The notes under the pieces: model-generated
What the model saw: only the letters and a program-made list of their open reading frames with translations
Database searches by the model: none
Told to the model about the DNA's origin: nothing
Program-made: the position numbers and the translations under genes
Origin: Candidatus Tyrphobacter aquilonaris
GTDB lineage: Bacteria > Vulcanimicrobiota > Vulcanimicrobiia > Vulcanimicrobiales > Vulcanimicrobiaceae
NCBI GenBank assembly: GCA_003133745.1
Contig: PKZD01000017.1
Location: 25,405-89,404 of the forward strand
Direction of reading: 5' to 3'
Length of the DNA: 64,000 bases
In this document: positions 13,672 through 30,875 of the stretch, piece by piece
Layout: every line of letters starts with the position of its first letter
Numbering within the stretch: position 1 is the stretch's first letter

Positions 13672-14145
13672 CTAGGAACGAGGAGGGAGCAACCCTGTCA
13701 CTTTGAAGGTGAACCAGGGCGGGAGTGCCATCTTCGCGCCAAGCTCCCGCCAGCGGTCGCGGTCGGAGCGTACGTCCGGGCCGCTGAGCGTGAGCGTTGC
13801 GTAGCGTTCGATCCCGGCGAACGTCGGCGTGCCGTAGACCGGGCTCACGTCGCCCGTCTTGCTGTAGATCACGCGCACCGTAACGGACCTCGTCTCCCCG
13901 CCGAAGTTCGGTGCCATCGTCGCGAGAACGCGTGACGCATCGCGCTCGAGAAGCGCGTTCGCATCGGCATCGCTCAGCCTGTTTTTCACGATCGAGGCGA
14001 CGACGGGGCTCGCATCCCACAATATCAGCGCATCCTCAGAGGCACGGGCGAGCACGGCATGCCCCGGTACGCTCTCGTCCGCGAAAACCGGCGCTGTGGA
14101 AATGCAGACTGTGAGAGCGGCGGCGAGAACGGCGATCGCTTTCAC
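13672..14145 (-). CDS. Small exported protein, paralogous to the 27962-28483 product
   Basis: Signal peptide; overlaps upstream gene by 4 bp; shared VTVRVIYSKTGDVSPVYGT...AGI...PP pattern with the other copy. Confidence 0.6.
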   Translation of the reverse strand: MKAIAVLAAALTVCISTAPVFADESVPGHAVLARASEDALILWDASPVVASIVKNRLSDADANALLERDASRVLATMAPNFGGETRSVTVRVIYSKTGDVSPVYGTPTFAGIERYATLTLSGPDVRSDRDRWRELGAKMALPPWFTFKVTGLLPPRS

Positions 14146-15761
14146 GGAATCAGCGGTCGCAGCGCGTTGACGATGGCGTTCGCGGTCACGATGCGGCCAT
14201 GTTCGGTAAGGTGGGCGTCCGCCGAGTAGATCTCCTCGTGGCGCGCCGAACGAATGTCGGCCATGTAGGCAGACCAGAGATCAATCCAATGGACGCCGGA
14301 TGCTGCGAGTGCGGCGTCCCAGGCGTCTTGCTGCGAACGGTCCGGCGGCGCCAGGGCATTCTCCTGAATCTTCGCCCATAGGTGTTCGGTCGGGCCGAGG
14401 AAATTCGGCATTGGGCGCTCGACGACGAACAGCAGAACGTGCTGGCGCTCGAGCGAATCACGCAGCGCGCGGAGCGACGCCGCCATGTGCCCCTTCCAGG
14501 CCGCGGGTCCTTCGTTCAGTAACACATCGCCGAGCGTTCCGTCGTCGACGTGCAGGATGACCGCGTCGAAAAGGGGCGCGGTCTCGTCGACGTAGGAGAT
14601 GATCGGCGCAAGCTGCGCGCCGGCCATCTGGACCGGCACGACTTCGGTTCTCGCGCCGAGGCCGTGCTCGATCATGTTCGCGATCGAATCCTGCCACGTG
14701 TTGCCCCACCACGTGAACGAGTTGCCGATTTCCAGCACGCGATACGCTGCTCCCCGTCGCGCCGGGGCAGCGTCAAAGATCGGATCGATGACGTCGCGCG
14801 CGTCGAATCCATCAAGGCGCTCGACTTGCCGCGTCGCCGCGCTCGTGAATACGATCTCGCCGCCGGGCAACGCGGCGATGCCGAGCGGCTCCGCTACATC
14901 GGCGAGGATCGCCTCATTCCTCGTGTTGAGATTCATGTAGCGGATCGTTCCTGTCCGCGGATCGGTATAGACGATCGAGTCCGGCCCGATCCGCGCGAGT
15001 TCGTAGGGCTGTCCGATCGGCTGATTTTCTTGGACCGGCACGCCCGACGTCGCATCGGATGAGATGCGGATCCAGACGCCGTCCTGCTGCTGCACCATGA
15101 TGCCATGGTCGTCGGAGACCACGATCATGAAAGGGTGTTCGAAGATGACGACGCCGTATGGATGGAGCACCGGAAAGGCGACCGACGGCTCGGAGGCGCC
15201 GGTCACGGTGCCGTTCGGCGCGATCTTGAGGAGGCCGAGTTCGGAATCGGCGACGTAGAGGTTCCCGTCATCGTCAAATGCGAGGCCCCGAGGGAGCCCG
15301 AGTGCGGGAACAAACGTCGTTACGACTCCTGCGTTGCTGATCCGCCGAATGCTGTGGTTCACCGTATCGGCGACGTAGACGAATCCGTCGCGACCGACCG
15401 CGATCCCCGACGGCGTATTGAACTGCGCGGATGCGGCAGGGCCGTCGCGGTTTCCCGGCGTCCCCCACAACCCCGCATCCTGCAGAAGCGACGAGCCCGC
15501 GAGCGTTCGAACGACGCCGCCGGGCGACACCACGCGAATGCGCTGGGCGCCGGCATCGGCGACGTACAGATTGCCGTGCGCGTCGGCCGCGAGCGCCGCG
15601 GGCATCACGAACGTCGCGGTCGTCGCGGGTCCGTCCGCCGCGCCGCTCCGTCCGGAACCGGCAACGACGGATATCTTCACGCCCCGCACGGCGTGCGAAT
15701 CTGCCGCGGCGCTTGCCGCGAGAAGGAGTGCGCCGACGGCGATTATGCGGAGCAGCAACAA
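14142..15761 (-). CDS. NHL-repeat propeller fused to SGNH-hydrolase-like domain, exported
   Basis: NHL repeats (GNLYVADAGAQRIRVV); SGNH block I LEIGNSFTWWG and C-terminal SADAHLTEHG. Confidence 0.75.
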   Translation of the reverse strand: MLLLRIIAVGALLLAASAAADSHAVRGVKISVVAGSGRSGAADGPATTATFVMPAALAADAHGNLYVADAGAQRIRVVSPGGVVRTLAGSSLLQDAGLWGTPGNRDGPAASAQFNTPSGIAVGRDGFVYVADTVNHSIRRISNAGVVTTFVPALGLPRGLAFDDDGNLYVADSELGLLKIAPNGTVTGASEPSVAFPVLHPYGVVIFEHPFMIVVSDDHGIMVQQQDGVWIRISSDATSGVPVQENQPIGQPYELARIGPDSIVYTDPRTGTIRYMNLNTRNEAILADVAEPLGIAALPGGEIVFTSAATRQVERLDGFDARDVIDPIFDAAPARRGAAYRVLEIGNSFTWWGNTWQDSIANMIEHGLGARTEVVPVQMAGAQLAPIISYVDETAPLFDAVILHVDDGTLGDVLLNEGPAAWKGHMAASLRALRDSLERQHVLLFVVERPMPNFLGPTEHLWAKIQENALAPPDRSQQDAWDAALAASGVHWIDLWSAYMADIRSARHEEIYSADAHLTEHGRIVTANAIVNALRPLIP

Positions 15762-15776
15762 GTCTCGTACATTCTC

Positions 15777-17597
15777 TTAGTAGAGGGGCGTCGCCTCGAG
15801 CGAGCGTGCGATCACGTTCGCGAGCAACGCTCGACCGGCTGCGCTGAAATGCGCATCGGCGGTGCCCCAGAGCGCCGCGTGGTCCGGTGCAGACTCCGCC
15901 GCTTCGAACGCCGGCCATGCGTCGATCGTTCGGACCCCCGACGACAGCACGGCATTGCGCACCGCTTCACCGGCATCGCCTTGGGGCGTGATCGTAGTCT
16001 GCAGGCGTGTCTGTTCCCATGCAAATTCGGTGAGTGAAATCTCAAACGGAAGGGGCTGCTCCACGACGGCCAGCTTGACGCCCCGCGCAGCGAGACGCGC
16101 GTCGAGCTCGCGCAAACCCTGCACGAACGGCCCTCGCCACGCCGCGACGTTCGCGACGACGTCGTGCAGATCCGTATATCCGTATTCGCCGATGACGCTC
16201 GTCGTGTTGATATAGAGGAGTGCGCCTTTGATCGCATGCGCGTCGGCCAGCGTTTCCAACAGGCTGCCGAGCGCCGCGAGCGTCGGAGCGCCGGGCGCGG
16301 TCACGGCGACGATCCGCAGATCCGGCCGGCGTAAACGAAGCCGGCGCTCGAGAATGCCCTGCACTGAATCATCCCACGTCGTCGTCGACCATGTCGCGGA
16401 GGTTCCGATCAGCGCGATCCCGGTTCCGGCGCCGTCGAGCGGCAGCGGATCGACGCCGGCGATCACCGGTTCTCGCCCCGGTCCCGGATCGAGCACCGTT
16501 CGAACGCGGCGGTTCGCCCCGTCCGCGACGACGAGGCTTCCGTCGGGCGCGAGCGCGATTCCAAACGGCGCATCGAAACGTGCCGCGCTCCCGACGCCAT
16601 CCGCGAACGCACCGGTATCGCCTGCGCCGTCCTCCACGGACGCTCCGGCGACGACACGATCCGAGCGAAACTCGACGTTCAGCAAACGGATCGTGTTCGT
16701 TCGGATATCCGAGTAGAACACGTGCGCGTCATCGAGCGCAGCGAGAGCATACGGGAAGCCAAGCGGCTGCAATCCTTGCGTCGGGGCGGCGTTCGCGTCG
16801 TTCGCCGTCGCCGGAGCCCCTGACGTGGTGTCTGCGAAGAAACGCCGGCGCGTTCCGTCCTGGCGCAACACGAGCAAGCCTTTCGTGTCCGCGACGTAGA
16901 TGGTTTCGGCATCTCCGCGAACGCCCACGGCCACGCCGTACACGTGGTCCGTCGGCGTTTCGCCAAGCGCAATGGTCGTCACGACGCCGCTGCGCGAGAT
17001 GCGGCGTAATCCCGCCAGCATGTCGGCCACCAAGAGGCTTCCATCGCGATCGATTGCCAACTCTACGGGACGTTGGAAGCGCGCGAGCAACCGCGGGCCG
17101 TCGGCATCGCCGCTCTGCATCGGCATGCCGGCGTATGTGCTGACGATCCCGCCTGCGATGCGGCGGATCACGTGGTTGTTCGCGTCGGCAACGAACACCG
17201 TGCCGTCGGCGGCGACCGCGACGCCGAGCGGCAAATCGAAACGCGCCTCGTCGGCGGGACCGTCGGCGAAACCAGGCGCGCGATTTCCGCCGGCGATCGT
17301 CCGCACCATCCCGTGCTCGATGACACAGACCCGATTCGCGCCCGCGTCGGCGACGAATATCCGCCCGCCGGAAGCGACCGCGACTCCGGCCGGCATGACG
17401 AAGGATGCGCTCGCGGCGGCGCCGTCAGATGTTCCCGATAGGCCGCTTCCTGCCAATGTTGCTACCCGTGGTTCTCCGAACGCCGGCAGCGCGACGATGC
17501 CGACGAACACGGCACAGCACGCGCTTGCGAGCACCCATGGGAAACGGCGCGCAATCGTCGTGTGCATCGTCGTGCTACTAGGACGCCGCTCCGGCAA
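15777..17597 (-). CDS. NHL-repeat propeller fused to SGNH-hydrolase-like domain, exported
   Basis: NHL repeats (GRIFVADAGANRVCVI); SGNH block I LIGTSATWSTTTW and C-terminal TADAHFSAAG. Confidence 0.75.
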   Translation of the reverse strand: MPERRPSSTTMHTTIARRFPWVLASACCAVFVGIVALPAFGEPRVATLAGSGLSGTSDGAAASASFVMPAGVAVASGGRIFVADAGANRVCVIEHGMVRTIAGGNRAPGFADGPADEARFDLPLGVAVAADGTVFVADANNHVIRRIAGGIVSTYAGMPMQSGDADGPRLLARFQRPVELAIDRDGSLLVADMLAGLRRISRSGVVTTIALGETPTDHVYGVAVGVRGDAETIYVADTKGLLVLRQDGTRRRFFADTTSGAPATANDANAAPTQGLQPLGFPYALAALDDAHVFYSDIRTNTIRLLNVEFRSDRVVAGASVEDGAGDTGAFADGVGSAARFDAPFGIALAPDGSLVVADGANRRVRTVLDPGPGREPVIAGVDPLPLDGAGTGIALIGTSATWSTTTWDDSVQGILERRLRLRRPDLRIVAVTAPGAPTLAALGSLLETLADAHAIKGALLYINTTSVIGEYGYTDLHDVVANVAAWRGPFVQGLRELDARLAARGVKLAVVEQPLPFEISLTEFAWEQTRLQTTITPQGDAGEAVRNAVLSSGVRTIDAWPAFEAAESAPDHAALWGTADAHFSAAGRALLANVIARSLEATPLY

Positions 17598-17615: not shown

Positions 17616-18515
17616 TTATCTTGCGGTGAGGATGCAGGCGTAGTTGATTGGGGTGCGCGGCTCCTCGGGTCCCTTCCCGTCGCGCACGTTGAGCACGATC
17701 TCCGACTCGATGCGGAAGCGTGTCTCGAGCATGTCGCGAACCTCCTGCGCCGATATGTAGAGGTAGATATGGTCGATGTTCGCGGCCCAGACGGCGGTCG
17801 TGAGGAAGATCGTGCCGCCCGGCGCGAGCAGACGGCTTAGCGTCTCGAGCAGCTCGACCGGCTTCTCGAGATGTTCCAGCAACTCGCCGCAGATGATGCG
17901 GTCGAACTTGCGGTCTTCGGGGAGCGCGAACACGTCTTTCTTGTCGATCATGGGCGCCCCGCCGGCGTTGATCCGTGCAATCGCGCGGCCGAACGCGACC
18001 GCGCTCTCGCTGATGTCGATCCCTTCGGTCGTCCAACCGGGATTGCGGCGCGCGAACTCCGAGATGAAGATGCCGGTTCCCGCCGGCGCTTCCAGCAGTG
18101 TCCCCGTTGCCGATGCCGTGTCGCAGAACTCGCGGTGGAAGTAATCGAGGATCTTCGTGTGGTTCACCCAGAACGCGGTCGAGAGAAAGAGGCCGTTGAG
18201 GTACCGGCGGTCCATGACCTCAGGGTTGTCGTACACGATCGCCCGCACTTCGTCGTAGCTCGAGTACGCGTAGTGTCCGGACTTGTCGAGATCGATCTGC
18301 AGGCGCACGAACTCTTCGGAGAGCGCGATGAAGTCGCGCAGGGCGGCGCGAAACGCGTCGGAATCGCCGCCGCACTTCTCGAACATCAGCCGGCAGATCC
18401 TCTCGCCGATCGCGCGGTCGTAGTCGGCCGCGCGCACGCGTTCGGGGATCGCGGCCGTCGCCCAGCTCTCGGCCAGCATGGTCAGCGCCGATGCAAACAG
18501 CTCCGCGTCAGTCAT
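17616..18515 (-). CDS. Class I SAM-dependent methyltransferase
   Basis: LLEAPAGTGIFISEFARR, GIDISESAVAFGRA, FDRIICGELLEHLEKP. Confidence 0.8.
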   Translation of the reverse strand: MTDAELFASALTMLAESWATAAIPERVRAADYDRAIGERICRLMFEKCGGDSDAFRAALRDFIALSEEFVRLQIDLDKSGHYAYSSYDEVRAIVYDNPEVMDRRYLNGLFLSTAFWVNHTKILDYFHREFCDTASATGTLLEAPAGTGIFISEFARRNPGWTTEGIDISESAVAFGRAIARINAGGAPMIDKKDVFALPEDRKFDRIICGELLEHLEKPVELLETLSRLLAPGGTIFLTTAVWAANIDHIYLYISAQEVRDMLETRFRIESEIVLNVRDGKGPEEPRTPINYACILTAR

Positions 18516-18608: not shown

Positions 18609-18998
18609 ATGCATTTTCACCACGTCGGCGTTGCGTGTGGCGATCTGGACGTCGACGAGCGCGCGTTCGCCGCGCTCGGCTACGCCCGCGAAAGGGACGA
18701 GTGCGTCGATCCCATCCAGAACGTGCGCGCGCGCTTCCTCGTCGGTCCGGGTCCGCGCGTCGAGCTCGTCTGCGATCTCGAGCCCGGCGGGCTCGTCTCC
18801 GATCTCGTCAAGCGCGGGGTGAAGGTGTATCACTTCGCCTACGAAGTCGACGATCTCGACGACGCGGAGCGACGGCTCTCGGAGTCAGGCGGGAAGCAGG
18901 TCGTCGCGCGGGCGCCCGGCGCCGCTTTCGGGATGCGGATGCTCTGCTTCTACGCGCTTCCCAACATGGTGCTGATCGAGCTTATCTCGCGGACATAG
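18609..18998 (+). CDS. VOC-family protein (methylmalonyl-CoA epimerase/glyoxalase-like)
   Basis: MHFHHVGVACGDLD start; YHFAYEVDDLDDAERRL; LPNMVLIELIS end. Confidence 0.75.
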   Translation: MHFHHVGVACGDLDVDERAFAALGYARERDECVDPIQNVRARFLVGPGPRVELVCDLEPGGLVSDLVKRGVKVYHFAYEVDDLDDAERRLSESGGKQVVARAPGAAFGMRMLCFYALPNMVLIELISRT

Positions 18999-20004
18999 GC
19001 GCGCCGGGCAGCGCGACCGGCCCGGCGGCGGCTCCGAGCGTTGCCGCGAGCATCGCCGCGAGCCGACGCTGCCCGTCCGCGCGCAAGTGCGCGTTATCGA
19101 AGAAATACTCGCCGGGGAACGCGCGGTCCCAGTCGACCACGCGCGCGCCGTGGCTGCGGGCCAGGCGCGCGAGGTAGTCGACGTTGGCGCGGTACTGCGG
19201 CGCGTCGATATAGTCGTGCATCAGCGCATGGTTGGTCGGCGTCATGAAAGCGAGCACGGAGATTCCAGCCGCACGCAGCGTGTCGAGCGTACGTTCGAGG
19301 TATCGCACACCGACATTGCCCTCGGTCAGCGGTGAGAGGTCATAGGTTCCTTCCAAAATATCCGCAGTCGGATGCGGGACGACGACGGTATCGACGTCAC
19401 CGTAGAGCGTCGCGCGTATGTCGGCGCGCATTGCGTAGACGAGCGAGAGCGAGTCGAGATCGCGGTCGACGCGTGCGCGCAGGCCGTCGTCGCTCGGGAC
19501 GCCGCGCAGCATCGCTCGATCTTCGGCGCTCAGCAGTGGTGCGGCGAGCCCCGCGATCCCCGGATCCAGCGTTTGGTACGTATCGTCCGCGGCGTTGAAG
19601 GCCTTTTGGTTGATCTCGATCACGACGAGGCGCGGCCGGATCCCTTGCGCGACGAGGAGCTTTGCCAACACGTAGTAGTTCGGCGGGCTCCCCGCTTTGA
19701 GCGCGAAGTTCGCACACGCGCAGCCGTGCGACTCGAGGAGCGAGACGGCGTTGGCAGCCGGCGGCAGGCGATAGCCCCACACGACCGAGTCGCCGAGAAA
19801 GATCGTCTGCGGCGGGCGCTCGCGCACGTATGCGAGCTCGCGCTGCAAGTACGTCGGCGAGAAGTCGCTATCGAAGCGCAGCAGATGCGGGAACCAGCGC
19901 GCGAGCGAGGCGTTCTCCGCGGCGACGGTCGACACGATCGCCAAGAGCGCGACGAGCGTCGGCGCGATCCAGCGCGACGCGCGTGCCGCAAATGACCATC
20001 TCAT
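18982..20004 (-). CDS. Membrane-anchored SGNH-like protein (module A)
   Basis: N-terminal TM; IFLGDSVVWGY block I; FFDNAHLRADGQRRLA C-terminal D-x-x-H-type motif. Confidence 0.78.
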   Translation of the reverse strand: MRWSFAARASRWIAPTLVALLAIVSTVAAENASLARWFPHLLRFDSDFSPTYLQRELAYVRERPPQTIFLGDSVVWGYRLPPAANAVSLLESHGCACANFALKAGSPPNYYVLAKLLVAQGIRPRLVVIEINQKAFNAADDTYQTLDPGIAGLAAPLLSAEDRAMLRGVPSDDGLRARVDRDLDSLSLVYAMRADIRATLYGDVDTVVVPHPTADILEGTYDLSPLTEGNVGVRYLERTLDTLRAAGISVLAFMTPTNHALMHDYIDAPQYRANVDYLARLARSHGARVVDWDRAFPGEYFFDNAHLRADGQRRLAAMLAATLGAAAGPVALPGAPMSAR

Positions 20005-20008
20005 CGCG

Positions 20009-21445
20009 TCAGAACCCCTTGTACACGATGTGCGGCGCAGGCGAGTTGAGGATCACCGTTACCGAGACGAGGAGGACCGCGAGCGCGGAGTAGAGCGCGA
20101 TTCGCGCATAGCGCGTCGGCGCGAGCAGCGGCCCTTGGGCTTCGAGCATCGTGAGGGCGTCGGCGGCGGCCTTCAGCATCGCCAAGAGAATCGTCGCGCC
20201 GGCGAACAGCAGCGCCAGCGCCAATGCGACGCCGCCGACTCCGAGGCTCGCGACGAACGTTCCGAGCTGCGCCCACGTCGACCAAAACCAGAGGGACGCG
20301 AAGGCGAAGTAGGCCAGCGTCGCGCCGCGCGAGAGCGCCGCGTGGACCGGGTTCGCGCACAGGTTGCCGTACCGCGCGCGGCCGAGGCGTCGCGTCATCG
20401 CGATCTCGTACAACTTGTTCACGCTGACGCCGAAGCCCAGCAGCACGCCGAGGAAGATGAACATCGACGTCTGTCCGTGCCAGACGCCGACGAAGAAGAA
20501 CGTCACGAAGTAGGCGAGCACGCCGAACACCGGTGCGACGCTCGGCGACGGATAGCGCCGCATCAGCGCCAGCAGCAGCGGCGAGTAAACGTACGTCTTT
20601 GCCCAGTTGGCCAGCGTGATGTGCCAGCGCCCCCAGAAGTCGATGAACCCCGAGGCCATGAATGGCCGATTGAAGTTCTCCGGCAGTTCAAGCCGCAGAA
20701 AGCGTGCGACGCCGATCACGAAGTCGGTGTAGCCGGAGAAGTTGAAGTAGAGATAGACCAGAAAGACCGCGGTCAACAGCGCCGCGTCGGCCGCATTCCG
20801 CGCAACGCCGCCCGAAGCGGAGAGGTTTGCGAGCAGAATCGCCTGCGCGTGTGCGAGCAGCGGTGAGACGATGCTGACCTTGAAAAACCCGACGAGGATG
20901 CGGCGTAGCGCAATCGCGGCGTCGGAGGCGCCGAGCGGCGCCGGCCGTACCGATTCGAAGCGGTGATAATCGCGATAGAATTGGATCGGTCCCGCGACGA
21001 GGCTGGTAAAGTTCAGCGTATAGTTGACGTAGTCGACCGGTCCGACGCGTTGCGGGAGCGCGTCCTGGTACGCGTCGATGATCAAGTGAAGCACGCGGAA
21101 GAAGACGTACGACATCCCGACCGTGAAGTACGCAAACGGCAGGAATGCATCGGAGGGAATGAACGCATAGCGCTTCAAGCAGCAGAATGCGAAGACGATG
21201 CCCACGCAGATCGCGGCGAACACCACGCGCTGCTTGCTCCGTTCCACGAGCTTCATGCAGCCGTAGCCTGCGAACAGGAGCGCCGCGAACGGCGCGAGCT
21301 GCCGTGGATCGTGGGTAAAGCTGAGGATGAAGGCGAGGTTCGCGACCAGCAGAACGGCGCGCCGCCAGCCGCTCGCGCGCGAACAATTGATCGCGATCGC
21401 GACGACTGCCGCGAAGCCGAGAAACTCGTACGATGGGACGTTCAT
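20009..21445 (-). CDS. MBOAT-family O-acyltransferase (AlgI/DltB-like, module A)
   Basis: Multi-TM; GFIDFWGRWHITLANW and FVGVWHG; start chosen at ATG 21445, overlapping the upstream stop. Confidence 0.88.
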   Translation of the reverse strand: MNVPSYEFLGFAAVVAIAINCSRASGWRRAVLLVANLAFILSFTHDPRQLAPFAALLFAGYGCMKLVERSKQRVVFAAICVGIVFAFCCLKRYAFIPSDAFLPFAYFTVGMSYVFFRVLHLIIDAYQDALPQRVGPVDYVNYTLNFTSLVAGPIQFYRDYHRFESVRPAPLGASDAAIALRRILVGFFKVSIVSPLLAHAQAILLANLSASGGVARNAADAALLTAVFLVYLYFNFSGYTDFVIGVARFLRLELPENFNRPFMASGFIDFWGRWHITLANWAKTYVYSPLLLALMRRYPSPSVAPVFGVLAYFVTFFFVGVWHGQTSMFIFLGVLLGFGVSVNKLYEIAMTRRLGRARYGNLCANPVHAALSRGATLAYFAFASLWFWSTWAQLGTFVASLGVGGVALALALLFAGATILLAMLKAAADALTMLEAQGPLLAPTRYARIALYSALAVLLVSVTVILNSPAPHIVYKGF

Positions 21446-23364
21446 TTCTGCGCGGGCGAGCGCTCGAACCCGCTGCGGTCGACCGCCATCGATTCCTCCG
21501 GCGGTTCTGCCGCCGTCTCCAGTTCCCACGTCGCCGCCTCGGCGCCGTCGGTGACGAGGCGGAAGCCCAGCTTCGCGTAGTGATCGCGCACCATCGCGTT
21601 GCGCTCGGTCGGAACGTAGCGTCCGACGAGGCGCTCGATCTTAACTGCGCGCGCGTGCCGGATGATCTCGCGCAGCACCATGTGTTCGACCCGCCGCCCG
21701 AGGACGCGGCAACTCATTACCCACGTGTCGATCTCCCACGTCCGCTCATTCGTGGGGCGGCAGATCGCGACGCTGATCATTCCGTTGTCGCCGTACGTGT
21801 CGATCAGCCGCACTTGCAGCGTGAAGAAATCCGGATCGGCTTCGAAGCGCGCTACCTCGGCTTCGTCGTAGCGGCGCGTCGTGAGGTTGAACTGGTTCGA
21901 CTTATTGATGAGTTGCGCGATCCGGCTGCGCCCCGTCACGTTGAAAGGCCGGAAGACGATGCGCATCTCGAGCGAGGCGAGATACGCCTCGACGTCGCCG
22001 ATAGCACCGCGCAGCGCCAGCCGCAGCGCGTTGTCCTGGTAGAAGCTCGCGCGCTTGCGATCCTCGTCGGAGAATGCGATCGTTTCGAAGTAACCGGCCG
22101 CCGCGAGCGTGCGCGCGTAGAGCGCCGGGTCGTCCGGCAGCTCCGGAACGGCGACCTGCGGCAGCATCTCGCGGACCAAACCGCGCTCCACGCGGTTATT
22201 GTCGAGTAGCACCATCGAGTCGAGCCCGAGCGCGAGCTCCTCGGCGATCGTTGCGATGTTCGTTGCCTTGTCGCTCCAGTTCGCTTGAAATGCAGCGATG
22301 TGCTCTTCACGCAGCAGCATGTCGGGGTGCTCGGCGAACGGCCGGCGCGCAACCGCGTCGTCGTTCTTCGAGGAGACGGCCAGAACGATGCCGCGCTCGC
22401 GCAGCGCGAGCGCCGCGCGCTGCACGTCGAGGAACGCTTCGCCGGTCCAATCACCTTGGCCGAGCACAATTCCCTCGAGCCCGTCGTCGCCGATCACCCC
22501 GCCCCATAGCGTGTCGTCGAGGTCGAGGATCAAGCAGCGGCGGCTCTTCCCGCGCAGCGCGCCGACGATGCGACAGACGTGATCGGCATAGAGCGGAAGG
22601 AAGCGCGCGTCGAAGGGCAGCTTCGCGACGTTCCATTGCCGAGGCGAATGCCAACTCGCGAGGCCGACGGTCTCCGCCAGCGCGGCGACGTCGAACACGA
22701 CGTCGTCGCTGCCGCGTACGCTCTCCACGAGCGCCGCATTGAACCTCGCGCAGAGGCTGCGCATCGTGCCGGGGACGACGCGGTCGTAGCTGCCGAACGC
22801 GGTCTCGGGCGGCGGCGCCAACGTCTGGACGATCACGCGTGCGCCGGCGTTGGCGTGGAATGCGGCGCGCAGCGCGTCGAGGTGCGCGACAGCGCCGGCG
22901 ACGATGCCGCGCGCCGTCTCCTCGTCGTAGAGTCCCGTCGTCAGCGGCAGCCCGCGAAAGTCGAGCGCAAGCAGCACCGCGTCGGGACGCGCGCTGTTGA
23001 TCCGCGACTCCGGCGACATCGCCTCCTGCACCGTCTGCGCGAAGTCGGCCTCGACGCAGCGCAAGGAAATGCCGTGGCGCGGCGCGGAGCCGATCAGCGC
23101 CGGCAGCAGCGGCTCGAGCATGACGTTCCCGACGACTGCGAGCAAGAACGGCGTGAGCGGCGACAACGAAGCGTCCCGCGCGGACAGCGCGCCGATTGCT
23201 TCCGCGAGCTGGCGCAGATGATTTTCGTTCAGCGCATGGTTCGCGAGGAGCGCAATCGCGCGGCCCGACGCTTCGGGATCGCCGGCGAGCGCACGACAGC
23301 GGGCGCGGAAATCCGCAGGCGGCTGTGGCAGCCATTCGAGCTTCGCGTAGAGGTCCTGACTCAT
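21442..23364 (-). CDS. HAD-IIIC phosphatase family protein, FkbH-like
   Basis: LILDLDDTLWGGVIGDDG motif; C-terminal GNAT-like segment (SNQFNLTTRRYDEAEV...GDNGMISVAI). Confidence 0.9.
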   Translation of the reverse strand: MSQDLYAKLEWLPQPPADFRARCRALAGDPEASGRAIALLANHALNENHLRQLAEAIGALSARDASLSPLTPFLLAVVGNVMLEPLLPALIGSAPRHGISLRCVEADFAQTVQEAMSPESRINSARPDAVLLALDFRGLPLTTGLYDEETARGIVAGAVAHLDALRAAFHANAGARVIVQTLAPPPETAFGSYDRVVPGTMRSLCARFNAALVESVRGSDDVVFDVAALAETVGLASWHSPRQWNVAKLPFDARFLPLYADHVCRIVGALRGKSRRCLILDLDDTLWGGVIGDDGLEGIVLGQGDWTGEAFLDVQRAALALRERGIVLAVSSKNDDAVARRPFAEHPDMLLREEHIAAFQANWSDKATNIATIAEELALGLDSMVLLDNNRVERGLVREMLPQVAVPELPDDPALYARTLAAAGYFETIAFSDEDRKRASFYQDNALRLALRGAIGDVEAYLASLEMRIVFRPFNVTGRSRIAQLINKSNQFNLTTRRYDEAEVARFEADPDFFTLQVRLIDTYGDNGMISVAICRPTNERTWEIDTWVMSCRVLGRRVEHMVLREIIRHARAVKIERLVGRYVPTERNAMVRDHYAKLGFRLVTDGAEAATWELETAAEPPEESMAVDRSGFERSPAQK

Positions 23365-23406
23365 CGAAGTTCTCGTCTCACCCCTCCGAGCGCGCGCCGC
23401 GCGACG

Positions 23407-23652
23407 CTACGCGTTGACCTTCGCGTCGATGAGCTGCGCCAGCTCTCCGACGTTCTTCAGCGAAGTGATCTCCGAGGCGGCGAAATTGATTCCGAAAGCC
23501 CGCTCGACGGTAAAGATCACGCGCAGGTACGCGAAACTGTCCCAGCCCGCGACCTGATCGGCAGTGAGATCGGGCCGCGCGACGATCGAATCGTCGTTGA
23601 ACACCTCGCGGAGAAGTTCGGTGAGGCGCTGGTAGATGTCGTCGAGGGACAT
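23407..23652 (-). CDS. Acyl carrier protein
   Basis: 81 aa; AGWDSFAYLRVIFTVERAFGINF with phosphopantetheine-site DS. Confidence 0.85.
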   Translation of the reverse strand: MSLDDIYQRLTELLREVFNDDSIVARPDLTADQVAGWDSFAYLRVIFTVERAFGINFAASEITSLKNVGELAQLIDAKVNA

Positions 23653-23724: not shown

Positions 23725-24483
23725 ATGACCGCCGTAGCGTTGTACCTCGACCTGCTGAAAGGCGTTCTCACCGACACGCTGTACGCGCCGGAGCCAGATC
23801 CGAACGCGAGCGACGCTGCATTCTTGCTGCAGTTCACGAGTCACTATGTCAAAGGCCGCGCGATCTCGATGCTGCCACGGGCGCGCCTCGACAACATTCA
23901 GGCGTGCGTCTTCGACGTCGTCGAGCGGGGCGTTCCGGGCGATCTCATCGAAACCGGGGTGTGGCGGGGCGGCGCGACGATCTTCATGCGCGGGATCCTC
24001 AAGGCGCTCGGCGTCACCGACCGCAGCGTCTGGGTCGCGGACTCGTTCGAAGGTTTGCCGGAACCCGACGCGGAGCGCTTTCCGCGCGAGGCTCAGGCGT
24101 ATCATAGCGGCGTCATGACGAACGTATTCGATCGCTTCGCGGACACGGAGGAAGCGGTGCGGCGCAACTTCGAGGCATTCGGGTTGCTCGACGATCAGGT
24201 GCGCTGGCTGAAGGGCTGGTTCAAGGACACGCTGCCGCAGGCGCCGATCGAGCGGCTCGCGGTCATGCGGCTCGACGGAGACTTCTACGAGTCGACGATG
24301 GATGCGCTGACGGGCCTCTACGAAAGGTTGTCGGTCGGCGGCTACGTGATCGTCGACGACTATGGCGAGGACGACTGGACGTACTGCCGTCGTGCCGTCG
24401 ACGAGTTTCGCGCGGCGCGCGACATCGCCGACCCGTTGATCCAGATTGATCGGCGCTGCTTCTACTGGCGTCGCGGCGGCTAA
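23725..24483 (+). CDS. TylF/MycF-family methyltransferase
   Basis: LIETGVWRGGATIFMRGILKA, WVADSFEGLPEPD, MRLDGDFYESTMDAL; start ATG 23725. Confidence 0.82.
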   Translation: MTAVALYLDLLKGVLTDTLYAPEPDPNASDAAFLLQFTSHYVKGRAISMLPRARLDNIQACVFDVVERGVPGDLIETGVWRGGATIFMRGILKALGVTDRSVWVADSFEGLPEPDAERFPREAQAYHSGVMTNVFDRFADTEEAVRRNFEAFGLLDDQVRWLKGWFKDTLPQAPIERLAVMRLDGDFYESTMDALTGLYERLSVGGYVIVDDYGEDDWTYCRRAVDEFRAARDIADPLIQIDRRCFYWRRGG

Positions 24484-24508: not shown

Positions 24509-26140
24509 TTAGAATACGCTCCGCTCGACATACCTGCCGTAGACTGCGACCATCGCTTCGACGAGCTCACCCTCCGTGCAATAGGCATTGGCACACGCGA
24601 TCAGGTGCGGCATGACGTTGTCGTTCGGGTCCGCGCAGGCGCGCTGCAGGCGTTCGAGCGTGGCGCTCACCTTCTGCGGATCGCGCGACGATCGCACGTG
24701 CCGCACGGCCTGCACCTGGTCGCGCTCCGTCTCGTCGGTGACGCGCAGGAAGTCGATGCCGGCTAAGTCGTCCGGCTTCTTGAACGCATTGACGCCGACG
24801 ATCACGCGCTCTTTGTTCTCGATCGACCGCTGGTAGCGATAGCTGGCATCGGCGATCTCTCTTTGGAAGAATCCTGCCTCGATTGCCGCGATGACGCCGC
24901 CGTATTCGGCGATCTGCGCGAAGTAGGATTCTGCTTGGCGCTCCATCTCGTCGGTGAGGGACTCGACGAAGTACGAGCCGCCGAGCGGGTCGACGACGTT
25001 CGTCACGTTCGTCTCGTATGCGAGCACCTGTTGCGTGCGCAACGCGGTCTCCGCCGATTTCTCGGTCGGAAGCGCATAGGCTTCGTCCATCGAGTTCGCG
25101 TGCAGTGATTGCGTCCCGCCGAGCACCGCAGCGAGCGCCTCGTACGCGACGCGCACGAGGTTGTTCTCAGGCTGCTGCGCCGTTGCGCTGCAGCCCGCGG
25201 TCTGCGTGTGGAAGCGCAAGTGCCACGACCGCGGATCATTCGCGCCGTATTGCTCGCGCATGTGTCGGGCGTAGATGCGACGAGCTGCACGGAACTTCGC
25301 GATCTCCTCAAAGAAGTCGATGTGCGAGTTGAAGAAGAACGAAAGGCGCGGCGCAAAGGAGTCGACGTCCATGCCGGCAGCGATGCACGCCTCCACGTAC
25401 GCGAAGCCGTCTGCGAGCGTGAACGCTAGCTCCTGCGCGGCCGTCGATCCCGCTTCGCGAATGTGATAGCCGGAGATGGAGATCGTGTTCCAACGCGGCA
25501 TTTCGCTCGTGCAGAATGCGATCATGTCGACGATGAGACGCATGTGCGGACGCGGCGGAAAGATCCACTCCTTCTGCGCGATGTACTCCTTGAGAATGTC
25601 GGCTTGCACCGTTCCGCCGAGCACGCGGCGTGAAATGCCTTTCTTCTCCGCGGCGGCGACGTATTGCGCGAGCACGATCGCCGCGGGCCCATTGATCGTC
25701 ATGGACGTCGTGATCGCGCCCATGTCGATGTCGGAGAAGAGCGTCTCCATGTCCGCGAGCGAGTCGACGGCAACGCCGCACCGCCCAACCTCGCCGCGCA
25801 CTTCGGGTGCATCGGAGTCGTACCCCATGAGCGTCGGCATGTCGAACGCAATCGAGAGCCCCGTCTGCCCTTGCGAGAGCAGGAACTTGTAACGCCCGTT
25901 CGTTTGCCGCGGCGTACCGAACCCTGCGACCTGGCGCATCGTCCACAGCCGGTCGCGATAGCCGTTCGGATGCAGGCCGCGCGTGTACGGATAGAAGCCC
26001 GGATCGGCGAGATCGCGCTCGTAGTCGAGATGCGCAACGTCCTCGGGCAGGTAGAGCGCTTTGAGCGAAACGTCGGAGATCGTGCGGTCGAGGGCGCCGG
26101 AGCCGGGTTCCTTTCGCACCTTCGAGCGGGGCTCGATCAT
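24509..26140 (-). CDS. Methylmalonyl-CoA mutase-like catalytic subunit
   Basis: PYTRGLHPNGYRDRLWTMRQVAGFGT, ISISGYHIREAGSTAAQELAFTLADG, SWHLRFHTQTAGCSATAQQPENN; ATG 26140 overlaps upstream stop. Confidence 0.88.
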   Translation of the reverse strand: MIEPRSKVRKEPGSGALDRTISDVSLKALYLPEDVAHLDYERDLADPGFYPYTRGLHPNGYRDRLWTMRQVAGFGTPRQTNGRYKFLLSQGQTGLSIAFDMPTLMGYDSDAPEVRGEVGRCGVAVDSLADMETLFSDIDMGAITTSMTINGPAAIVLAQYVAAAEKKGISRRVLGGTVQADILKEYIAQKEWIFPPRPHMRLIVDMIAFCTSEMPRWNTISISGYHIREAGSTAAQELAFTLADGFAYVEACIAAGMDVDSFAPRLSFFFNSHIDFFEEIAKFRAARRIYARHMREQYGANDPRSWHLRFHTQTAGCSATAQQPENNLVRVAYEALAAVLGGTQSLHANSMDEAYALPTEKSAETALRTQQVLAYETNVTNVVDPLGGSYFVESLTDEMERQAESYFAQIAEYGGVIAAIEAGFFQREIADASYRYQRSIENKERVIVGVNAFKKPDDLAGIDFLRVTDETERDQVQAVRHVRSSRDPQKVSATLERLQRACADPNDNVMPHLIACANAYCTEGELVEAMVAVYGRYVERSVF

Positions 26141-27975
26141 CTTCGCCACGGCGCCATCGCGTGAAGGCGCGCGGCCACGGCGTTCGCGATGATTGCCCGC
26201 GCGCGCCGCGTGAAATGGTAGTCGGCGGTGCCGAAGAGCGGCACGTGCGGCGACGCCGCCTCTTCGGCCGTGAACTCCGGCGTCACGTCGACGGCGGGGA
26301 CACCCGAGCGCATGATCGCGTCCTCGAGCCGGCGCATCGCTCTCGCGTCGGGCGCCATCGCGTACGGCGGAGCGAACTCCTCGGCGATGGGATACCACGT
26401 CCCCTCGCTCGGGGCGAACGACGTCGGCACCGGATGGACGATGACGAGGAAGCCGATGTTCTTTGCCGAGAGCGTGCGGCTGATGTCGACGAGCGTTCTC
26501 GTGAGCTCGGCGGGCCAGTCCGCGCCGGCGAGGTCCGGCGTGCGGTGCTCGTTTTCATACGTAGTATAGACGTTGCCGAGGTTGATGTTGAGGACGACGA
26601 AATCATAGAATCCGGTCAGCGCCGCAAGCGTAGCGAAGTTCCTGAACTCCGCATTCGCGAGCTTGATGATTGGAACGATCTTCGGATGCTTGCCCAACGC
26701 GCGCAAGCCGGGATCGACGGCAAGGCGGTCTTGCAAGAGACCTTCGATCGACGTCGCCCAGTCCGTGCCGTAGTAGATGTAGGAGTCTCCGACGTACGCG
26801 ATGCGGTATTCCGAAGGATCGGGATGCTCTGCGACGCCGGGAAACGCGACTTCGAGCGAGCCCCATGGGTCGACGCGCTCGGTCGGAGATAGCTTGCGCA
26901 CGCGGCGATTTCCGCCGTCGGCGACGACCAGGCCGCCGTCCGGCGCGCGCGCGATTCCGAGCGGCGTGAAGAACTTCGCTGCCGGTCCCGGTCCGTCGTC
27001 ATAACCGCCCGTATCGCCGGAGCCGTTCTCGGAGGGCGTTCCCGCGAGCAGTGCGGTCTGCCCCGAGATGATCTCGAGCGAGCGGATCGTGTTCGTGCGC
27101 AGTTCGGTGTACGCGACGGTGTTTTCATCGATCGCCGCGAGAAACGCCGGTTCACCGAGCGGCTGTTCCGCCGCCGTTGTGAGCGTCCGTTCCGCGTTCG
27201 GGATTCCTTCACGGGAGAAGCCGCGATCCTCGCTCGGGCTGCGGCCGAGCCGGCGTGCGACAATGCCGTCCTGATCGCCCGCGAAGACCGTCACCTCGCG
27301 CGGTCCGTCGAAGACTGCGACGGCATACGGCTTGTTGCCGAGCGATGGTATCGTCGTCACGTTCCCGGCGGGATCGATTTCGCGGATGCCGGTGTAGTCG
27401 GCGACGAACAGGTCGCCCTGATGGTCGACTGCGAGGCCCGTCGGATCGCCGAAGCGTGCCGTCGACCGCGGTCCGTCAACGTGCCCGGGCGCGCTCGGCG
27501 AGCCGGCGTACGTCGTGACGTCGCCGCGTACGTCGATTGCGCGAATGCAATGGTTCAGCGTGTCGGCGACGTAGATCGTCCCGTCGCTGCGAATCGCAAT
27601 CCCGGCTGGGCGATCGAAACGCGCCGCCGTGCCGCGGCCGTCCGCGTAGCCGCCGGTCACCCAGAATCCGCTGGAATCAAGCGCGCCGCCGCCGGCAATC
27701 GTCCGCACGCTGCCGTCGGGATCGATGCGACGGATCCGCTGCGCGGCACCATCGGAGACGTAGAGTCTGCCGGCTGCGTCGTACGCGAGGCCGGTCGGCA
27801 TGAGGAACGTTCCGTTCGAGCCGTCGGCGAATCCGAGTTCTCCCGTCCCGCTCAACGTGCTCACCACCGTCGTCTCACCGAGCGCCTGCGGCGCTGCGGC
27901 GGACGGGAATGCGAGCGGCAGGGACGTCGCTGCGATCGCGCAGACGACCGCGCGCAGCAATCTAGTGCGGAGCAT
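26137..27975 (-). CDS. NHL-repeat propeller fused to SGNH-hydrolase-like domain, exported
   Basis: Signal peptide; NHL repeats; SGNH block I YVGDSYIYYG and C-terminal TADYHFTRRA. Confidence 0.75.
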   Translation of the reverse strand: MLRTRLLRAVVCAIAATSLPLAFPSAAAPQALGETTVVSTLSGTGELGFADGSNGTFLMPTGLAYDAAGRLYVSDGAAQRIRRIDPDGSVRTIAGGGALDSSGFWVTGGYADGRGTAARFDRPAGIAIRSDGTIYVADTLNHCIRAIDVRGDVTTYAGSPSAPGHVDGPRSTARFGDPTGLAVDHQGDLFVADYTGIREIDPAGNVTTIPSLGNKPYAVAVFDGPREVTVFAGDQDGIVARRLGRSPSEDRGFSREGIPNAERTLTTAAEQPLGEPAFLAAIDENTVAYTELRTNTIRSLEIISGQTALLAGTPSENGSGDTGGYDDGPGPAAKFFTPLGIARAPDGGLVVADGGNRRVRKLSPTERVDPWGSLEVAFPGVAEHPDPSEYRIAYVGDSYIYYGTDWATSIEGLLQDRLAVDPGLRALGKHPKIVPIIKLANAEFRNFATLAALTGFYDFVVLNINLGNVYTTYENEHRTPDLAGADWPAELTRTLVDISRTLSAKNIGFLVIVHPVPTSFAPSEGTWYPIAEEFAPPYAMAPDARAMRRLEDAIMRSGVPAVDVTPEFTAEEAASPHVPLFGTADYHFTRRARAIIANAVAARLHAMAPWRR

Positions 27976-28483
27976 TCGCGGCTCGCAGAAGATCGGCGGC
28001 CGGCACGACGCTCAAACCCGGCGGAAAGACGCCGCGCTGCGCATCGCTCTCCCACGTTCGCGGGAACGATGCTCTCTTGCGCGGGTCTCCTTCGACCGTC
28101 AACAACGTGCGAATGCCGGCATCGGGACGCGTCGCATACGGTCCGGAGACGAGACCGCTCTGCGCGAACACGACGACGACCCGTAGATGCGTCGTGCCCG
28201 CCGGGAGCTCGCCGGCGCGCGTGACGAAAAGCTTCACCGCTTCGTATTCGAGCGCGCGCAGCGCCGCCTCCCGCGGCGTCGCGTTATCCAGCAACCGCTC
28301 GACCCAAAGCGTCGCGTCCCACCACAGCACGCCTCCCGATGCGTCGAGGCTGAGCACGACGCGCGGTTGCGGATAGTGAGCGAGGTCGACGGATGCGGCG
28401 GGCGCTGCGGCGGCCGCGCTCAGGAGAATCGTCACCGCGGCGAGCGCGCGACACGCGTTTGCGCGAAGGAGCGCGATCTTCAT
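27962..28483 (-). CDS. Small exported protein, paralogous to the 13672-14145 product
   Basis: Signal peptide MKIALLRANACRALAAVTILLSAAAAAPA; LRVVVVFAQSGLVSGPYATRPDAGI resembles the other copy; overlaps both neighbours. Confidence 0.6.
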   Translation of the reverse strand: MKIALLRANACRALAAVTILLSAAAAAPAASVDLAHYPQPRVVLSLDASGGVLWWDATLWVERLLDNATPREAALRALEYEAVKLFVTRAGELPAGTTHLRVVVVFAQSGLVSGPYATRPDAGIRTLLTVEGDPRKRASFPRTWESDAQRGVFPPGLSVVPAADLLRAANAPH

Positions 28484-29688
28484 AGGAAGGCCCGGTAGAT
28501 GCTGAACGCATCGGCTGTCGAGGGCGCCGCGATCCAACCCAGGCCGAACGTGAAGCTCGCATAGGTGAGGCCCACGGAGAGCACGCGCAGGACCGGGTTC
28601 GGCGCGCTCAGCCATGCGATGCGGCGCGACACGCCGGCGCGCCACAGATGATAGAAAGCCAGGCACGCGCCGTTCCATACTCCCCAGATGACGAAATGCA
28701 ATCCCGCGCCGTGCCATACGCCGATAATGATCATGACGGCGACCATCGAGACGAGCACTCCGGGCCGGATCCCCCCGATACGAATGCCGCCGCCCGTGCG
28801 TTTCGTCAGCGGCAGAAAGATGTAATCGCGGACCCACGATGTGAGCGACATGTGCCAGCGCTGCCAGAACTCCAGCAGGTTGCTCGCCCGAAACGGGTGC
28901 GCGAAGTTTTCGGGAACGCGCACTCCGAACAGCAAGCCGAAACCAATCGCCATGTCCGTATATCCCCCGAGGTCGTAATAGACCTTGACGCTTCCGGCGA
29001 CCAGCGCAAGCGCGTACGTCGCCGCCGTGTACGACGGATCGGGGTGAAAGATGGGAGTGGCGAAGAGCGAGACGGGATCGGCGATCGCGATCTTCTTGAA
29101 TAAGCCGCTGAGGATGCGGTAGAGCGCTGCGTGCAAGTCCGGGCCGGTTGCCATCCGCAGCGCCTGCACTTGCGGTGAGAACATGCGATAGCGCTTGATG
29201 GGGCCGGCGACCATCGTCGGGAAGAAGAGTGCGAAGAGCAGGAACCGCTCGAACGTGAACTCTTTGATTCTGCCGGCGTGGACCTCGACGATGAAGTGGA
29301 TGAACTCGAACGTGAAGAACGAGATCGCGAGGGGCGCGATCAGCGGCCCGACGACCGGCACGTGCCAGCCGGGAACGGCGGCGCCGAACGCGGCGCTCAG
29401 CCAACGCGCGTACTTGAAGTAGCAGAGCAGCAACGTCAGCGCGGTGATCGCACCGCCGGCGAGGACGGCACCGCGCATGCGTTCGCCGCCGGTTTGCAGG
29501 AGCCGCGCGACCGCATAGGTTCCGAGCGTTGCACCGACGATGACGAGCAGGTTCGCGGGCCCGGCGTTCGCGTAAAATGCGAGCCCGGCGAGGATCAACA
29601 CCCAGGCGCGTATTCGCGGCGGGGAGAGCGCGTACGCCGCAACGACGACGACGGCGAACACGGCAAACGGCCAGGTGTTAAAGAACAT
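28480..29688 (-). CDS. MBOAT-family O-acyltransferase (module B)
   Basis: Multi-TM; LLEFWQRWHMSLTSW and IIGVWHGAGLHFVIWG. Confidence 0.88.
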   Translation of the reverse strand: MFFNTWPFAVFAVVVVAAYALSPPRIRAWVLILAGLAFYANAGPANLLVIVGATLGTYAVARLLQTGGERMRGAVLAGGAITALTLLLCYFKYARWLSAAFGAAVPGWHVPVVGPLIAPLAISFFTFEFIHFIVEVHAGRIKEFTFERFLLFALFFPTMVAGPIKRYRMFSPQVQALRMATGPDLHAALYRILSGLFKKIAIADPVSLFATPIFHPDPSYTAATYALALVAGSVKVYYDLGGYTDMAIGFGLLFGVRVPENFAHPFRASNLLEFWQRWHMSLTSWVRDYIFLPLTKRTGGGIRIGGIRPGVLVSMVAVMIIIGVWHGAGLHFVIWGVWNGACLAFYHLWRAGVSRRIAWLSAPNPVLRVLSVGLTYASFTFGLGWIAAPSTADAFSIYRAFL

Positions 29689-30709
29689 GGAGCAACTTTG
29701 CGAGACGCGGGCGGATTGCTTGCGCGAGCCGCGCGCTGCCGATCGGGTTCAGGTGCGTGTTGTCGATGAAATCGCTCGCGGCGAACCGGCTGTCGAGATT
29801 CAGAACGGCCAGTCCGCGGTCACGCGCCAGTCGCTGGACGCGCGCAAGATTGGCGGCGTAGGCGGCGTTGTCGATGTAGAGGTGCAGCAGCGCATGGTTC
29901 ACCGGCGGCAGCACGACCAGCGCCGGAATTCGGCGCGCCGCGAGCATCGTGAACAGATGCTCGGCGTAGGCGTAGGAAACATTGCTCGCATCGAGCGGCG
30001 TCAGATCGTACATCATTGCGTACGCCGCGGAGTCGGCACCCCGTGGCATCGGTTGCAGGAACGGTTCGATCAATCGCTGGAGGGCCGTCGCGAGATCGGC
30101 GTCGCCGAACAGCGCTTGGTGCACGTCGACGCGCAAACCGTACAGCAGCCAGTGATCGGCGACAAAGCGGTCGAGCCGTTCTCCCGCGCCGTCTTGAGGG
30201 TGGACGACGGCGTTAAGCCTATCGCGATCGAACGGTTCGACGAGCGCGGGAACGCAGAGCTCCGCGAGCGCTGCGTTCAGCGTGTCGTAGGCCGGGGCGG
30301 TCTCGTTGAAGGATGCCGGATTGATCTCGACCAGCACCGCGCGTGGGCGCAGATTGCGCGCGAGCAAGTAGCGCAGCACGAAGTCGGCGTTGACCGGCGT
30401 CTCGGCTTCGTAGGCGAAGTTGGCGACGCGGTCGCCTTGCAGCGCCGACGCCAACTGGGCGACGGGCCCGTCGGCGGCGCGGATACCGTAACCCCACATC
30501 TCCGAGTCGCCGAGAACGACGACGGCGCCCGGCCCCGCGTTCTCCGCGTAGCGCTGCAGGTACTCACTCGAGAAGTGGGTGGGAAGCCGCACGCCACCGT
30601 GCCAGGTGCCGAGGGCAAGGTCGGTGAGCGCGAGCAGTGACAACGTCACCAGTGCGCTCAGCCAGATTCGGGCCGGCCGAGCGACCGGTCTCTCCTTAGA
30701 AGTTGCCAT
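29678..30709 (-). CDS. Membrane-anchored SGNH-like protein (module B)
   Basis: VVVLGDSEMWGY; FIDNTHLNPIGSARLA; clearly paralogous to 18982-20004. Confidence 0.78.
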   Translation of the reverse strand: MATSKERPVARPARIWLSALVTLSLLALTDLALGTWHGGVRLPTHFSSEYLQRYAENAGPGAVVVLGDSEMWGYGIRAADGPVAQLASALQGDRVANFAYEAETPVNADFVLRYLLARNLRPRAVLVEINPASFNETAPAYDTLNAALAELCVPALVEPFDRDRLNAVVHPQDGAGERLDRFVADHWLLYGLRVDVHQALFGDADLATALQRLIEPFLQPMPRGADSAAYAMMYDLTPLDASNVSYAYAEHLFTMLAARRIPALVVLPPVNHALLHLYIDNAAYAANLARVQRLARDRGLAVLNLDSRFAASDFIDNTHLNPIGSARLAQAIRPRLAKLLHVL

Positions 30710-30875
30710 AGAAGAAGCGGTACTGCGTCGCGGAGCTCAGGACGATCATGGTGACGATCAGCAGGTAATAGACGACGCCCATCGCGAGTGCGTCGTCGAA
30801 CGGAAGCCACCAGCGGCGCTTCGGCTGCTCCGCCACCGTGCGCGGAGCCTTGCGCCTCGAAAGGTCAACATCCAC
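30696..30875 (-). CDS. Small single-TM protein (59 aa) at head of module B
   Basis: Hand translation from GTG 30875: MDVDLSRRKAPRTVAEQPKRRWWLPFDDALAMGVVYYLLIVTMIVLSSATQYRFFYGNF; below the ORF-track length cutoff; overlaps next gene by 14 bp. Confidence 0.6.
   Translation of the reverse strand: MDVDLSRRKAPRTVAEQPKRRWWLPFDDALAMGVVYYLLIVTMIVLSSATQYRFFYGNF

Follow-up and report, generated by a model that had tools for sequence, protein, structure and literature searches.

A candidate Dlt-like surface acylation cassette from Candidatus Tyrphobacter aquilonaris with an FkbH-family enzyme as its putative loader

The 64,000-nucleotide stretch of Candidatus Tyrphobacter aquilonaris DNA analysed here (contig PKZD01000017.1, positions 25,405 to 89,404; hereafter the window) carries, as four successive minus-strand open reading frames (ORFs) at 23652-18982, the genes for an acyl carrier protein (ACP), an FkbH-family enzyme, an MBOAT-family protein (MBOAT1) and a membrane-anchored SGNH protein (SGNH1). 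We consider it likely that this cassette is a carrier-protein-fed MBOAT-SGNH acylation machine in which FkbH acts as the loader. The strongest support for FkbH doing the job of DltA, the adenylating enzyme of the Dlt system, is a natural exchange of loaders, as read from the gene content of orthologous cassettes.

Loader exchange, core genes and conserved linkage

Within the class, MBOAT1 orthologues are set sharply apart from other MBOATs, at 53-60% versus about 36% or less identity. An orthologue is present in 10 genomes of the class, in nine of which the neighbourhood can be read, and in all nine an ACP with its serine lies beside MBOAT1. The adjoining loader is FkbH in 7/9; in one case (genome G016, L156:7333-8883) it is replaced by a DltA-like amino-acid adenylating enzyme and in another (genome G031, L155:7393-9135) by a fatty-acyl-AMP-ligase-like (FAAL-like) enzyme. 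The DltA-like enzyme scores 347.5 against a cut-off of 317.4 for AA-adenyl-dom and 301.8 against a cut-off of 476 for DltA. A search of G031 for FkbH gave no match, and the same search in G016 gave a single match, 31% identical and on another contig. Since a DltA-like or FAAL-like enzyme stands in for FkbH in orthologous cassettes, FkbH appears to hold the place of DltA.

By sequence inspection and alignment, all catalytic motifs of the four core proteins are intact. The ACP (23407..23652, minus strand, as are the three that follow; 81 residues) carries its phosphopantetheine serine, Ser39, in the motif GWDSF, and this residue is invariant across all aligned ACPs; the protein reaches 25.7 bits against the PP-binding cut-off of 20.8, its profile matches a putative ACP with a solved structure (2lml), and its similarity to DltC is weak (16.8 bits versus a cut-off of 68). 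A gap of 42 bp separates it from FkbH (21442..23364, 640 residues), a member of the glyceryl transferase/phosphatase family and putative ACP loader that exceeds the cut-offs of TIGR01686 FkbH (280.2 bits versus 146.65), HAD-IIIC (53.6 versus 35.75) and Pfam FkbH_N (37.1 versus 27). D281, D283 and C552, which we take to be the catalytic Asp pair and a conserved catalytic Cys, do not vary across an alignment of 93 homologues (another row has a gap at that place); K333 and D388 are also invariant. FkbH and MBOAT1 overlap by 4 bp (ATGA). MBOAT1 (20009..21445, 478 residues from the ATG within this overlap) belongs to PF03062 (61.5 bits versus a cut-off of 27), has H275 and H323, both invariant among aligned relatives, and bears two extra C-terminal transmembrane (TM) helices; against the DltB equivalog TIGR04091 it scores 154.7 bits, under the cut-off of 375, and the best PDB matches of its AlphaFold model (pLDDT 89.7) are DltB (E 8e-12, TM-score 0.67-0.69). 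After a spacing of 4 bp follows SGNH1 (18982..20004, 340 residues, TM helix 5-37), whose GDS and DxxH motifs never vary among its close relatives. Its assignment as an SGNH protein is weak from sequence (GDSL 27 bits, under the Pfam cut-off of 32.9) but firm from the predicted fold, the first 12 PDB matches of its AlphaFold model (pLDDT 78.9) all being DltD (E 3e-05); as a DltD-type protein it is a candidate, with no DltD match in the Pfam search.

Two peptide patterns, run against 85,462 species genomes, returned at least 80 FkbH relatives, and the linkage counts given here describe the relatives listed, not every FkbH. An ACP lies no more than 3.5 kb from FkbH in 75 of the 80 and an MBOAT in 50. 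MBOATs number 50 in the 502 kb within this distance versus two in the 790 kb beyond it, one of these two being a split MBOAT gene barely past the limit, and the presence of an MBOAT, mapped on the tree of the FkbH proteins, calls for 15 changes, versus 30.5 with shuffled labels. A chance neighbourhood was rejected on this enrichment and clustering. The linkage is spread over seven phyla or more (Vulcanimicrobiota/Eremiobacterota, Pseudomonadota, Acidobacteriota, Nitrospinota, Omnitrophota, Elusimicrobiota and Bacillota), and the closest named relative of the cassette among the matches listed is Candidatus Eremiobacterota (L034). Three genomes from other genera of the same family hold ACP, FkbH, MBOAT1, SGNH1, an NHL-SGNH protein and the small protein hypA (both described below) in differing orders and orientations; the order in Stutzerimonas is MBOAT, FkbH, ACP, SGNH, and that on pSymB of S. 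meliloti 1021 (L114 6486-11685) is VOC, MBOAT, SGNH-like protein, FkbH. The ACP often directly adjoins MBOAT or SGNH, with overlapping ends. As gene order and strand vary, the FkbH-ACP-MBOAT linkage is maintained and not merely inherited. In S. meliloti 1021, FkbH is split across two reading frames and the genes beside the cassette look, by eye, like capsule export genes; five sphingomonad loci (L051, L053, L055, L057 and L063) carry ACP-FkbH-MBOAT-SGNH, mostly with a VOC gene.

In PatA and DltX, the acyl group is carried on the tyrosine of a C-terminal FxYxxF hexapeptide (PMC12148441). MBOAT1 ends in HIVYKGF, which is of this type with Ile replacing the first Phe, and its terminal IVYKGF (20012..20029, minus strand) is a putative acyl-tyrosine shuttle centred on Tyr475; the model places the extra helices at 391-436 and 445-466. 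The pattern [FILV]xYxxF forms the exact C-terminal end of 45 FkbH-linked MBOATs in the 80 loci. Three complete FkbH-linked MBOATs do not have it (L050, L071, L105), and each of these is accompanied by a separate DltX-like TM microprotein ending in IAYQQF or VIYQKF; two more without it lie at a contig end (L067) or have an odd C-terminus (L081). Among the 24,922 ORFs of the 80 loci, the motif occurs, besides the MBOAT tails and these three microproteins, only once more, in an ORF between FkbH and an SGNH gene at L061, where the contig stops before any MBOAT. Tyr475 is invariant in the alignment, in part because most of the aligned sequences were picked for the motif. With a shuttle that forms part of its MBOAT, in the manner of PatA, and no separate DltX, the machine would be a Dlt/PatA hybrid.

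The first-pass annotation had described four consecutive minus-strand genes with these overlaps, which is borne out to the base, and its proposal that FkbH and ACP replace DltA and DltC in feeding the MBOAT/SGNH pair is supported by the linkage, the DltB and DltD folds, the shuttle tyrosine and the loader swaps. A modifiable ACP serine and a conserved co-occurrence, both of which it had singled out as checks, were found, the latter with gene order reshuffled across the phyla named above. Its likening of the cassette to Dlt is supported for the logic of carrier and loader, with the correction that a fused shuttle takes the place of a separate DltX.

Neighbouring genes and a second MBOAT cassette

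The operon extent given earlier holds for the four-gene core and not for the limits of the cluster, which is larger. A VOC-family, methylmalonyl-CoA-epimerase-like protein (18609..18998, plus strand; PF13669, weak metmalonyl_epim) and the S-adenosylmethionine methyltransferase MT23 (17616..18515, minus strand; PF13489) are candidate tailoring enzymes, and a TylF-type O-methyltransferase gene (23725..24483, plus strand; PF05711, 290.6 bits) diverges from that of the ACP. Two minus-strand genes encode an NHL beta-propeller joined to an AlgX-like SGNH domain: NHLa (15777..17564), which is secreted and has an NHL match and an ALGX score of 22.5 bits, under cut-off, and NHLb (14142..15761). They are followed by hypA (13672..14145, minus strand), a small secreted protein in an AlgF-like position, conserved in relatives and with no match in the Pfam search. 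The VOC, MT23, two NHL-SGNH proteins, hypA and TylF recur with the core cassette in relatives; NHLa is linked to the cassette there, hypA orthologues are present at L017, L018, L019 and L154, and TylF adjoins the cassette at L017 and L019. The VOC recurs beside FkbH-ACP in 15 of the 80 listed loci, and MT23 also recurs there, with the VOC also present in 8 of the listed loci. The candidacy of the VOC as a true methylmalonyl-CoA epimerase was rejected (metmalonyl_epim 29 bits versus a cut-off of 115). Glu48, which acts as general base in the known methylmalonyl-CoA epimerase, presumably has no counterpart in the VOC, and, because of the low score and the apparent absence of this residue, the protein is termed only epimerase-like. 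A gene for a methylmalonyl-CoA mutase large subunit (24509-26146, minus strand) sits between the two MBOAT cassettes of the window.

The second cassette, also on the minus strand, comprises a DltX-like microprotein with a TM helix and the C-terminus FFYGNF (30699..30836; read from a GTG codon at either 30836 or 30875, with the stop codon at 30698-30696), SGNH2 (29678..30709; DUF1574 above cut-off), MBOAT2 (28480..29688, 402 residues; PF03062), which has no fused shuttle, the small secreted protein hypB (about 28483-27962) and the NHL-SGNH protein NHLc (26137..27975), which recurs in relatives. The microprotein lay unannotated upstream of SGNH2 and MBOAT2. The arrangement of microprotein, SGNH, MBOAT, hypAB and NHL-SGNH recurs in relatives of this cassette, whose microproteins end in F(I/F)Y(T/G)(D/N)F, and MBOAT2 belongs to a separate clade from MBOAT1. 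Its own C-terminus, SIYRAFL, was rejected as a shuttle motif, as the two extra helices are missing and the FFYGNF microprotein is encoded upstream. There is no ACP near MBOAT2 in the window, and relatives of its cassette have neither ACP nor FkbH nearby; its donor could conceivably come from a carrier encoded elsewhere in the genome. Proteins joining an NHL propeller to a C-terminal AlgX/SGNH-like domain (window positions 14142-17597 and 26137-27975) constitute a secreted family that, in this lineage, accompanies the one MBOAT cassette as well as the other, and hypA and hypB, which resemble each other, are both conserved alongside MBOAT cassettes in an AlgF-like position.

The host genome, a 2.28-Mb draft that is 93% complete, encodes two MBOATs, both inside the window, a single FkbH (the sole FkbH_N match) and, within an ORF of 444 residues, its only convincing ketoacyl synthase; no polyketide synthase (PKS) was found in this draft. 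Between 31 and 48.6 kb the window holds genes for glycosyltransferases, a DegT aminotransferase, a UDP-glucose dehydrogenase and an epimerase, and this part is therefore read as a surface-glycan region.

Proposed mechanism and alternatives

The analysis shows which genes are present, that their motifs are intact, how the proteins are predicted to fold, that the linkage is conserved and that loaders are swapped; a model of how the cassette may act proceeds as follows. FkbH would load a glyceryl group from 1,3-bisphosphoglycerate onto the phosphopantetheine of the ACP, this being the chemistry of its family (PMC7489565), and the holo-ACP would dock at the cytoplasmic face of MBOAT1. MBOAT1 may then use His323 to bring the acyl group through the membrane and place it on its own Tyr475 in IVYKGF, a transfer to a shuttle tyrosine that is established for PatA and, through DltX, for Dlt (PMC12148441). 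The acyl-tyrosine tail would hand the group to the serine of SGNH1, which could esterify a surface glycan, probably the product of the nearby glycosyltransferase genes, possibly by passing the group on to the secreted NHL-SGNH proteins in the way that AlgJ may do with AlgX, the secreted SGNH protein that completes alginate O-acetylation (PMC4148444). Epimerisation or methylation, of either the acyl group or the glycan, may be the work of the VOC and the methyltransferases. A glyceryl unit, possibly in methylated or epimerised form, is the probable acyl group, and a surface glycan is the predicted acceptor.

Several points weigh against this model. The contact between ACP and MBOAT1 is a predicted one only, and MBOAT-SGNH systems other than Dlt are inferred to use acyl-CoA (PMC12148441). 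FkbH-ACP pairs occur without an MBOAT in 19 of the 59 well-flanked listed loci, which means that the pair has uses in further pathways too. At L018, L019 and L154 FkbH is encoded on the opposite strand, the cassette was not found in the seven same-genus genomes searched, and SGNH proteins at distant loci are often under Pfam cut-offs. Further, MaoC-SDR proteins stand beside some FkbHs, and the acyl group is therefore perhaps not always glyceryl. Such MaoC-dehydratase/SDR fusions beside FkbH-ACP lie at L152:12579-13976 (Pfam-checked), L071:8186-9640 and L093:4266-5690.

An alternate scenario, which we regard as possible if somewhat doubtful, retains the same machine and assigns it another acyl group, such as lactyl, O-methylglyceryl or L-glyceryl, formed on the ACP by a MaoC-SDR protein, a methyltransferase or the VOC. 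The recurrence of VOC and MT23 with FkbH-ACP, whether or not an MBOAT is present, would suit such a role, as would the MaoC-SDR-type proteins beside several FkbH-ACP pairs. However, these partners vary among loci that share the same core, and, since methylation of sugars is common in the TylF family, the methyltransferases may act on the glycan.

It is unlikely that the cassette combines two unrelated functions, with MBOAT1-SGNH1 as an acetyl-CoA-dependent O-acetyltransferase and FkbH-ACP supplying a cytoplasmic acyl-ACP, for example for nucleotide-sugar acylation. Every readable MBOAT1 orthologue keeps the ACP, even where an adenylating loader replaces FkbH, the ACP often overlaps the ends of MBOAT or SGNH genes directly beside it, and the ACP-FkbH-MBOAT linkage recurs across phyla, although acetyl-CoA is the donor of PatA and AlgI-type systems (PMC12148441), FkbH-ACP pairs are found without MBOAT and no ACP lies close to MBOAT2, the other MBOAT of the window. 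A glycerate pathway of secondary metabolism (tetronate or methoxymalonyl-ACP) with the MBOAT tailoring its product is largely refuted and now highly improbable. FkbH and ACP do form the known first steps of these pathways (PMC7489565), and FkbH and MBOAT are both mentioned in an aeruginosin review and a suomilide paper, but the host draft genome, 93% complete, has its single convincing ketoacyl synthase and no PKS, the Pfam-examined genes of the window include neither an FkbI-type acyl-CoA dehydrogenase nor FabH, and a DltD-like membrane-anchored SGNH protein and glycan genes are present.

Implications and comparison with known systems

No description of FkbH with an MBOAT-SGNH pair was found in the open-licence literature; the single parts are already known, and the combination and the loader exchange appear, at the level of sequence, to be new. 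A cassette that is built like Dlt but appears to start from another loader hints at a modular design of these machines. We give even chances to a general plug-in architecture in which the loader (FkbH, DltA-like or FAAL-like), the shuttle (an MBOAT tail or a microprotein) and the last SGNH protein can each be swapped without the others; Dlt would then be one case of a much wider system for placing glyceryl and further acids on surface glycans, the L-glycerate of gellan possibly among them. A 2025 account of MBOAT-SGNH systems pairs a carrier protein with the DltX microprotein in Dlt, and acyl-CoA with a fused shuttle in the others (PMC12148441). The window appears to break both pairings: MBOAT1 combines a carrier with a fused shuttle, and MBOAT2 goes with a DltX-like microprotein and has no carrier in its vicinity. 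If true, gene content would predict which acid goes on which glycan, and orphan glyceryl substituents, for example the L-glycerate borne by gellan (PMC9104527), would have in the cassette a candidate origin open to testing. It is possible that the sphingomonad cassettes are linked to glycerate on sphingan polysaccharides, gellan included.

With Dlt (DltA, DltB, DltC, DltD and DltX; D-alanylation of teichoic acids) the cassette shares a carrier protein with a dedicated loader, the DltB fold of MBOAT1 (TM-score 0.69), an SGNH1 fold nearest to DltD and the tyrosine shuttle motif. Unlike Dlt, the putative loader is FkbH instead of the adenylating DltA, the shuttle is fused to MBOAT1, and the cassette occurs mainly in Gram-negative lineages with glycan clusters and is joined by extra NHL-SGNH, VOC and methyltransferase genes. 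The two extra MBOAT helices, the fused FxYxxF-type C-terminus and the separate membrane-anchored SGNH protein recall PatA/PatB peptidoglycan O-acetylation (PMC12148441), although PatA takes acetyl-CoA and has no carrier protein, whereas the cassette includes an ACP and a loader. The tetronate and methoxymalonyl-ACP pathways (PMC7489565) likewise combine an FkbH-family enzyme, here above cut-off, with a stand-alone ACP; the cassette differs from them in having no PKS, FabH or dehydrogenase partners and in the export as an ester predicted for its product. As in AlgI/AlgJ/AlgF/AlgX (PMC4148444), there is an MBOAT, a membrane-anchored SGNH protein, a second, secreted SGNH protein with an extra domain and a small non-catalytic secreted protein, hypA being likened to AlgF by gene position alone; the Alg system has neither carrier protein nor loader, and the second SGNH of the cassette is fused to an NHL propeller.

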